Virus record (IMG/VR): IMGVR_UViG_3300042471_000340
Span: 1-29,157 of that record
DNA length: 29,157 nt
From: a virus
Reading direction: 5' to 3' (one strand)
The notes under the pieces are model-generated. The model did no database searches, was not told the DNA's origin, and worked only from the letters and a program-made list of their open reading frames with translations. The translations under genes were made by a program, and so were the position numbers. Positions within the stretch are counted from its first letter, which is position 1. Each line of letters starts with the position of its first letter. Shown in pieces: positions 20,226 through 21,574 of the stretch.

Positions 20226-20303
20226 GCGTTTTCTTTACCTACCGCATCCGAAACGGAATGATTGCCTTTTACCCGCGCCGGGGGTAAAGTCCGGGGGTTT
20301 ACC
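20199..20303. promoter_or_regulatory. Operator array of TTTACC(C) boxes in divergent region
   Basis: Boxes occur at 20201-20206, 20212-20218, 20234-20239, 20268-20274, (inverted) 20282-20288 and 20298-20303. The 20268 and 20282 boxes form a perfect palindrome, TTTACCC-N7-GGGTAAA, while the others are single half-sites in the same orientation. The region is 165 bp long and divides two diverging operons, the normal location of a lambdoid-type operator. The bound protein is presumably the adjacent Cro-like regulator (inference). Confidence 0.7.
20262..20290 (+). promoter_or_regulatory. Rightward promoter of the Cro-like gene
   Basis: TTGCCT (20262-20267) and TAAAGT (20285-20290) are separated by 17 bp. 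The palindromic operator occupies the whole spacer and the first four bases of the -10 element. This would give tight autorepression. The initiation codon follows 26 nt later with ACGGAG as ribosome site. Confidence 0.6.
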
Positions 20304-20316
20304 TTACGGAGTACCT

Positions 20317-20553
20317 ATGGATATCAAGCCTTTTTTCGACCTGTTGGGCAAGCAGTCCCGAGTAGCACGGGCGTTCGGCGTAACCGATGCTGCTGTGCTG
20401 AAATGGAAGCGTGACGGGCGCATCCCGGCGCATCGTGTAGAGCGCGGAGCGGCGATTCTGGCGGCTGCTGCGTTACCCGAGGGGTGCAGTCTGACCCCGC
20501 CTGAAACCGCTGTAGAAGCCTCTGGCGCGATCACGGCGACTGCTGTAGAGTGA
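20317..20553 (+). CDS. Cro-like HTH transcriptional regulator
   Basis: The 78-residue protein starts MDIKPFFDLLGKQSRVARAFGV and has a helix-turn-helix at about residues 13-40 (SRVARAFGVTDAAVLKWKRDG then RIPAHRVERGAAI). This is the pattern of short Cro/YdaS-like repressors in lambdoid and related phages. It lies next to the TTTACCC operator array and is the first rightward gene. Its role would be to repress its own promoter and PL. No partner cI gene is seen in the window. The C-terminal 25 residues are low complexity. Confidence 0.82.
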   Translation: MDIKPFFDLLGKQSRVARAFGVTDAAVLKWKRDGRIPAHRVERGAAILAAAALPEGCSLTPPETAVEASGAITATAVE

Positions 20554-20560
20554 CCTCCAC

Positions 20561-20629
20561 GGGGCGGCTCTGTCCGCGCTGACGCTCCATCCTCCCGCCA
20601 GCGGTGGCAAGACCACCCGGAGCCGCCCC
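20561..20629. repeat. 10-bp inverted repeat with internal hairpin
   Basis: GGGGCGGCTC (20561-20570) and GAGCCGCCCC (20620-20629) are perfect complements separated by 49 nt. Inside, GGTGG and CCACC flank a 5-nt loop (CAAGA). A stable branched RNA is possible just after the Cro-like stop codon, perhaps a 3' end structure. Confidence 0.7.
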
Positions 20630-20644
20630 ACCTCCCCCCAGAAA

Positions 20645-20724
20645 CGACAAAGCCCCACCGGGGCAGATGGGGCCTTGACGCCGAGGACTGGCCTCGGATA
20701 CGCTATCAATGCAACTTGAGCGTG
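20645..20724 (-). ncRNA. Candidate small RNA, about 80 nt, with promoter and terminator
   Basis: A promoter reading leftward (next entry) would start transcription near 20724. The transcript would have three successive hairpins: ACGCT/AGCGT (14-nt loop), CCGAGG/CCTCGG (5-nt loop), and GCCCC-GGT-GGGGC followed by TTTGTCGTTT. The last is a rho-independent terminator form. No ORF of note is present. The target is unknown; it would be antisense to nothing annotated, as the region lies downstream of the Cro-like gene. Confidence 0.5.
20652..20664 (-). terminator. Terminator of the candidate small RNA
   Basis: Read leftward, GCCCC-GGT-GGGGC gives a 5-bp GC stem with a 3-nt loop, followed by TTTGTCGTTT (20642-20651). 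Read rightward the T run is missing, so it should act mainly leftward. Confidence 0.55.
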
Positions 20725-20730
20725 GAACGG

Positions 20731-20759
20731 ACTTTACCGGACGATTTCGGACAAGTCAA
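20731..20759 (-). promoter_or_regulatory. Leftward promoter of candidate small RNA
   Basis: Read leftward, TTGACT (20754-20759) and TAAAGT (20731-20736) are separated by 17 bp. The -35 is one base from TTGACA. The -10 word TAAAGT preceded by GG is shared with three other promoters in this window (20285, 21035, and leftward 15029), which supports its use. Confidence 0.55.
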
Positions 20760-20939
20760 GGCCGCGCCTGATGCTCGGGCGGTCTGGTCGGGGAAACAAC
20801 GCACAGGCCCACCTTAAACCTACATCGGGGCAGCCAGCCTGTAGGTGCGCGGCGTATCGTCGGGAAGCGCAAATGGCAGCCGATGGGACGAACATCTGCC
20901 AAAAGTAGCCGACAGCGGATGGCTCCGTCAGTCATCTTT

Positions 20940-20981
20940 CCGCACGATTCGCTGTAGGCAGATTCCGTCTACACCGTGCGG
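20940..20981. repeat. Nested inverted repeat (possible origin element or RNA)
   Basis: CCGCACG (20940-20946) and CGTGCGG (20975-20981) are perfect complements; inside, TGTAG (20953-20957) and CTACA (20969-20973) pair with an 11-nt loop. The element sits 78 nt upstream of the replication-type gene. Confidence 0.65.
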
Positions 20982-21012
20982 ACTCACCATCAGTCATCAG
21001 GGTTTAAGACAC

Positions 21013-21040
21013 TAGACAATCCTGAAATCTAGGGTAAAGT
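21013..21040 (+). promoter_or_regulatory. Rightward promoter of the replication/late genes
   Basis: TAGACA (21013-21018) and TAAAGT (21035-21040) are 16 bp apart, and a strong ribosome site (GAGGAGG) lies 5 nt before the ATG at 21059. A GGGTAAAG box overlaps the -10, as at the repressor boxes near 20282, so control by the same regulator is possible. Confidence 0.5.
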
Positions 21041-21058
21041 CATGGTGAGGAGGACACC

Positions 21059-21574
21059 ATGAACGAACTTGACGAGCAGGCATGGGAACGGTGGGTAGCC
21101 TTTCGCAAGGCAATACGCAAACCGATTAAACCCGCAAGCGAACAAACGATGAAACTCAAACTGTCGCGCTACGGCGCAGAACAGGGCGAGGTGGTAGACC
21201 AGTCCATCAGCAACCAATGGCAAGGGCTGTTTGACCTAAAGAAAGCCGCGCCTCGACCGGGCGAGAAGGTTGAGAAAACCGACAAACAACGCGCCGCCGA
21301 TGTTGCCCGCCACGCTGAACAAGACGAATGGGCTGCAAAGGCATGGGGGAAACAGGAACCGACCCCGCTGCACCGGCTGAAACTGTGCGATGCGTACCTT
21401 GCGCGGTTGACGATGCGTGAAGCGGATAAAGACGCATGGGATCGGCTGCGCGATGCTGCAGCGGCTGCCATCCGTGACGCTGACCCTAAAGACGTGCTGA
21501 ACGACCCGCATTTGGTGGGGATGGTGCGGCACTTGTTCGGGGAGCGTGGCTTGGGGAGGCTGCGGAACCGATGA
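21059..21574 (+). CDS. Replication-associated protein (WQGLF-type domain)
   Basis: The 171-residue product begins AWERWVAFRKAIRKPIKPAS (from residue 8), then MKLKLSRYGAEQGEVVDQSISNQWQGLF. This domain is typically the C-terminal part of phage replication initiation proteins and helicase loaders. Here it begins the protein, so the usual DNA-binding N terminus is missing. The rest is helical and charged with no ATPase motif. The position after a structured non-coding region and a promoter fits a replication role. It overlaps the next gene by 4 nt. Confidence 0.72.
   Translation: MNELDEQAWERWVAFRKAIRKPIKPASEQTMKLKLSRYGAEQGEVVDQSISNQWQGLFDLKKAAPRPGEKVEKTDKQRAADVARHAEQDEWAAKAWGKQEPTPLHRLKLCDAYLARLTMREADKDAWDRLRDAAAAAIRDADPKDVLNDPHLVGMVRHLFGERGLGRLRNR

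Follow-up and report, generated by a model that had tools for sequence, protein, structure and literature searches.

Gene neighbourhood of the locus

The window, i.e. the whole stretch of DNA analysed, is the IMG/VR virus record IMGVR_UViG_3300042471_000340 of a lake phage, with a length of 29,157 bases. According to PHROG matches, it encodes portal, terminase, amidase and endolysin, together with a leftward recombination block comprised of a Sak-type annealing protein, a YqaJ exonuclease, SSB and a NinB-like protein. No close relative of the window was found among annotated phages and plasmids searched by DNA; the top protein relative of its O-like gene belongs to MW202691.1, an uncultivated spring-water podovirus.

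The studied locus is bordered on the left by a Cro/YdaS-like HTH gene (20317..20553, + strand; PHROG 409 and 35), whose product scores slightly under the Pfam cut-off for both P22_Cro and YdaS_toxin. On the right it is bordered by an O-like replication gene (21059..21574, +), represented only by its C-terminal half, which aligns to positions 222-309 of 346 in PHROG 678 and to 180-261 of 272 in PHROG 6451. Between them are located a leftward small RNA (sRNA) gene, a rightward promoter embedded in it, and a large structured RNA termed ncRNA2. A strong inverted repeat, GGGGCGGCTC...GAGCCGCCCC, without a T-tract, follows directly after the Cro-like gene (20561-20629). Immediately before the O-like gene there is a promoter-like TAGACA-16-TAAAGT (21013-21040, +), and GGTAAAGTC is common to this region and to the sequence that precedes the Cro-like gene, at 20283.

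The order Cro-like gene, sRNA, O-like gene is conserved among relatives, with either the O-like gene or a shorter relative of it downstream of the sRNA. Extra genes are inserted on the Cro-like side of the locus in some relatives. In four of them (L140, L193, L260 and L289), inserts placed between the Cro-like gene and the sRNA resemble, by eye, DNA cytosine methyltransferases, and end at a constant distance of 137 nt from the sRNA terminator.

The leftward small RNA

At the level of sequence, the interval 20759-20641 on the minus strand is confirmed as a small-RNA gene. A promoter precedes three hairpins, the last of which is an intrinsic terminator, and the predicted transcript (20641..20724, -) is about 80 nt long. 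The sigma-70-type promoter (20731..20759, -) is composed of TTGACT at 20759-20754, 17 nt, and TAAAGT at 20736-20731, just as described in the initial annotation. The three successive stem-loops claimed for the following ~80 nt all fold. These are hairpin I (20700..20723, -), with a conserved GCA in its loop, hairpin II (20681..20697, -), and hairpin III (20640..20680, -), an intrinsic terminator with a T-rich tail, detected also by a terminator scan. The MFE of the minus-strand stretch is -39.1 kcal/mol (z -4.6), and none of 200 shuffles was equally good. The covariance model R1 matches the window at 20637-20724 (-) with 82 bits. The claim that the stretch lacks an ORF also holds, in the sense that no ORF is conserved, length and frame varying freely among relatives.

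Consensus scans returned 4 promoter-like sites where 2.8 were expected, and 9 terminator-like ones where the expectation was 8.5. As such scans are unable to tell the sRNA signals from chance, conservation in relatives is decisive. Rfam gave no match at the gathering score in the window, none at E 10 in 20540-21060, and none in the relatives at the sRNA or at the neighbouring ncRNA2.

Conservation and covariation

Relatives were collected via the O-like protein (80 loci) and the Cro-like protein (20 loci), and further ones using two patterns in ncRNA2 and one in the sRNA terminator, the terminator-pattern loci being those among the matches listed. The sRNA was detected by R1 in 88 of the 100 protein-fetched loci, in all 88 on the leftward strand. 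Ten of the 12 negative loci, from the O-protein set, have less than 400 nt before the O-like gene; of the remaining ones, L083 ends at the sRNA site, and L101 is only distantly related. Among loci fetched via ncRNA2, R1 detects the sRNA in 71 of 79. As judged by these matches, practically all relatives with an O gene carry the sRNA, provided that their contigs extend to the site.

Promoter placement is equally regular. In each of the 115 pattern-found loci among the matches listed, TTGAC(A/T/G) precedes the terminator by 76-85 nt. Within these 115 listed matches, the leftward -35 is TTGACA in 104 loci, the spacer equals 17 in 101, and the -10 follows YAnnnT, with A2 and T6 kept, in every locus. 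Because A2, T6 and spacers close to 17 were favoured in scoring the -10, the stronger evidence comes from the -35, which lies at a constant distance.

A covariance search of relatives had been named beforehand as one check on this RNA, and it revealed conserved stems with compensatory changes. In an alignment of 85 distinct rows fitted to the R1 model, both sides changed in 17 of 24 base pairs (4/5 in hairpin I, 6/6 in hairpin II, and 7/13 in hairpin III), although the statistics ignore kinship and related rows are not independent. The covariation score is 0.222, compared to 0.061 in shuffled alignments and at most 0.049 with slid partners. A separate stem search, in which G-T and A-C were treated alike, disclosed more than 30 different stems of hairpin II. 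Regarding strand specificity, the terminator hairpin III read on the minus strand shows G-T 72 times and A-C not once, and G-U is favoured on the minus strand in hairpin II as well, while the signal of hairpin I is ambiguous, with A-C exceeding G-T on the minus reading. A comparison of sense and antisense folding energies of hairpins I and II was discarded as misleading, probably due to promiscuous folding of G-rich loops.

Of the earlier proposal of a phage-encoded regulatory RNA, the small RNA itself is thus strongly supported by the conserved promoter, terminator and covarying stems, and the regulatory role is likely, judging from genomic position. One explanation assumes that it acts mainly by base pairing, either in trans or as a cis-antisense RNA in the manner of OOP on cII, i.e. 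by pairing with the message that extends from the Cro-like into the replication gene and exposing it to RNase III. The place, direction and size are those of OOP, compensatory stem changes indicate that RNA structure matters, and hairpin II loops are mostly C-rich. We nevertheless consider this explanation somewhat unlikely. Loop sequences are unconserved apart from GCA, the sRNA ends ~88 nt beyond the Cro-like stop and so has no coding overlap in the window, and its pairing with ncRNA2, flanks or flanking leaders is no better at its own locus than at foreign loci.

The opposing rightward promoter and its leader hairpin

The sRNA gene contains an embedded promoter of the opposite direction, TTGACG-18-TACGCT (20675..20704, +), with a predicted start near 20711 and directed into the replication region. 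It was found in all 120 loci tested, with TTGACG in 119 and TTGGCG in one, followed by TAnnnT; the spacer is 18 in 69 loci, 17 in 50, and 16 in one. In many of the 120 loci TTGACG is dictated by the terminator pattern, and loci fetched only by protein, e.g. L014, carry it too. With TTGACG in place, the -10 would arise by chance with a probability of 4.8% per locus.

This promoter explains otherwise puzzling invariants of the sRNA. CGTCAAG before the terminator corresponds to its -35, the TA after hairpin I together with the bulged A within hairpin I to its -10, and the GCA loop to its start region. The two promoters are placed face to face, some 13 nt separating their predicted starts, and the terminator of the leftward RNA is situated directly past the rightward -35 box.

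A dyad is located inside the sRNA promoter spacer (20730..20757, +). It is better than shuffles in 60 of 62 distinct spacers, and its loops are constant while its arms vary. In the plus-strand reading, non-Watson-Crick pairs are G-U in 21 cases and A-C in one, a bias that indicates an RNA hairpin in the leader of the rightward transcript. Since dyads occur in both promoter spacers, they might also be regarded as DNA-level operator sites for a repressor, with the RNA being incidental. This is very improbable, because the arms vary with compensation around constant loops and the G-U pairs are strand-specific; in addition, the other promoters of the locus do not repeat the spacer words (8.3 vs 8.17, p 0.23). 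Operator words that the sRNA promoter shares with other parts of the locus did not exceed those in foreign controls.

The neighbouring structured RNA

Directly to the right of the leftward promoter lies ncRNA2 (20772..20999, +), a 228-nt structured RNA with two pseudoknots, identified by covariation and more striking as a finding than the sRNA. Relatives were sought with a DNA profile, and more than 90 distinct variants are available. The hand-drawn structure includes nine helices, the two pseudoknots among its features, with paired cells at 95.6%. Both sides changed in 32 of 51 pairs, and the covariation score is 0.395 against 0.172. RNAalifold, used alone, reproduces a large share of the nested part. 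The folding energy of the single sequence is not significant on either strand because pseudoknots are ignored in this calculation, and the structure was settled by covariation. In 84,980 species genomes surveyed for prophage relatives, two pattern matches were dismissed as chance, as the rest of ncRNA2 was missing and the matches had the look of ordinary coding DNA.

Two direct repeats are found in ncRNA2, X1 after GGCTCC (20927..20936, +) and X2 after CACCA at the 3' end (20989..20998, +). Within one phage the two copies are almost the same, but they vary from one phage to another, the distant MW202691.1 included, so that X2 co-varies with X1. This suggests that alternative pairing may take place near the ribosome-binding site. 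In many loci, the end of ncRNA2 falls shortly before the start of the replication gene. MW202691.1 is a complete phage (L331:2700-3000) in which the same direct-repeat layout is accompanied by a leftward TTGACT-16-TAAACT promoter; R1 detected no sRNA in it.

One slot, three modules

The slot between the leftward promoter and the O-like gene is occupied by ncRNA2 in 223 loci (a number inflated by fetching with ncRNA2 patterns), by a second RNA-like class in 78, and by a DUF1376 protein in 12. None of the classified loci carries two modules. In the O-protein set alone, the respective numbers are 33, 35 and 5, with seven contigs being too short. The second class (alignment A5; e.g. L021:2273-2475 and L043:2686-2894, +) is characterized by the invariant GGGGG(T/G)TAGGGGGG and apparent compensatory changes, and has no Rfam match. 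The sRNA is retained with all three modules and is thus independent of which of them comes next. In one locus, four 22-bp iteron-like repeats lie between the sRNA and the O-like gene (L004:2511-2597). The three-way slot, the adjoining large structured RNA and the promoter opposing the sRNA were all overlooked in the initial annotation.

That annotation had offered an origin or primer RNA as an alternative. The sRNA does adjoin the replication gene, and the GC skew of the window changes sign at about 20-21 kb. However, the RNA is self-terminated and directed away from the replication gene, and it persists where iterons or the DUF1376 protein replace ncRNA2; the primer role once proposed for lambda OOP was later considered unlikely (PMC3985674). 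We regard it as very improbable that the sRNA serves as a primer or belongs directly to the origin, an idea unsupported for the sRNA itself, although its neighbourhood does resemble a replication-control region.

The DUF1376 protein (e.g. L014:2553-3017, +, compared with 21059-21574 of the window) corresponds to the N-terminal half (1-144) of the 272-position primosomal family PHROG 6451, and the O-like protein to its C-terminal half (180-261). Neither Phage_rep_O nor DUF1376 domains were found in the window record, which may be incomplete. The DUF1376 domain search is weak as a negative, being also empty in every control genome; direct tblastn gave no significant DUF1376 match. Mutual exclusion and this domain bookkeeping, in a possibly incomplete record, raise the idea, unlikely as it is, that ncRNA2 and the second RNA class took over the origin-recognition half of a split initiator. 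The origin would then be RNA-based, the O-like protein would be only the C-terminal, helicase-recruiting half, and the sRNA with the face-to-face promoter would be the control element of the origin. The idea has some precedent, since RNA-based prophage replication is on record for phages in mycobacteria (PMC7157519). A slot in which structured RNAs and an initiator protein domain replace each other makes RNA-based phage origins directly testable.

Proposed control of replication transcription

The letters themselves show the two promoters, the terminator, and, for either strand, hairpins at the RNA level; we infer firing of both promoters, interference, antisense pairing, and an effect on replication. 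Polymerase starting at the leftward promoter would cross the entire rightward promoter and would be stopped by the terminator immediately beyond the rightward -35 box. In this way, leftward transcription would occlude or collide with rightward transcription, the presumed source of ncRNA2, as a structured leader RNA, and of the replication-gene message. The first 14-20 nt of the sRNA would also be complementary to the 5' end of the rightward transcript. The length of the sRNA would be limited to that needed for crossing the rightward promoter. We see about an even chance that leftward transcription shuts off rightward replication transcription, the outcome being either an off-switch for transcription of the replication gene or a mutually exclusive toggle.

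Interference alone would not call for the compensatory changes observed in hairpin II, so the RNA itself probably acts as well. A rightward transcript from the Cro promoter could cover the region, in which case the antisense overlap would be 80 nt instead of 14.

Comparison with known systems

In phage lambda, OOP and its leftward promoter pO have a modulating effect on cII and on replication; pO has been proposed to tune replication jointly with pR, and OOP RNA, besides silencing cII, contributes to replication silencing from plasmids (PMC3985674, PMC5869508, PMC3349717). OOP is leftward, about 77-80 nt long and self-terminating, has its own promoter, and is placed between the cro region and gene O (PMC3349717, PMC3985674). 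The sRNA described here is likewise leftward and located between Cro-like and O-like genes, and its sequence signatures are those of a short, self-terminating RNA with its own promoter. In contrast, OOP is antisense to the cII 3' end, while no cII-like gene was identified beside the phage sRNA, which has no coding overlap (about 88 nt separate the upstream stop from the RNA end). Also unlike OOP, the sRNA has a covarying three-hairpin fold and a rightward promoter inside its gene. R1 gave no match in the lambda cII-O region and left lambda oop undetected. The sRNA probably works like OOP in most testable respects, while not being a demonstrated member. As neither antisense overlap with cII nor a detectable relationship to OOP was found, we report it as a new RNA family of the OOP kind, with the predicted opposing promoter as its new built-in feature. 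OOP-like RNAs have been known mainly from lambda, and their role in replication has been argued over for decades. Hundreds of freshwater phage contigs keep a compact OOP-like RNA with a built-in opposing promoter, and with so many of them covariation can reveal what is needed.

Face-to-face promoters form the repressor switches of phages 186 and P2, in which both transcripts are protein-coding. Convergent promoters a few tens of bp apart are common to these switches and the locus studied here, as is control by transcriptional interference, presumed in our case. Here, however, the leftward product is a terminated RNA of 80 nt, and the region concerned is that of replication.

In ColE1 (RNA I / RNA II) and in other antisense replication controls of plasmids, a small hairpin RNA with a terminator opposes a large structured RNA, which is the combination found in the replication region of this phage. 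In ColE1-type control, complementarity extends over the whole length of the small RNA, whereas the embedded promoter predicts an overlap of 14 nt at the 5' ends only, and read-through from the Cro promoter would give the full length. A further difference from ColE1 is that a replication protein gene follows.
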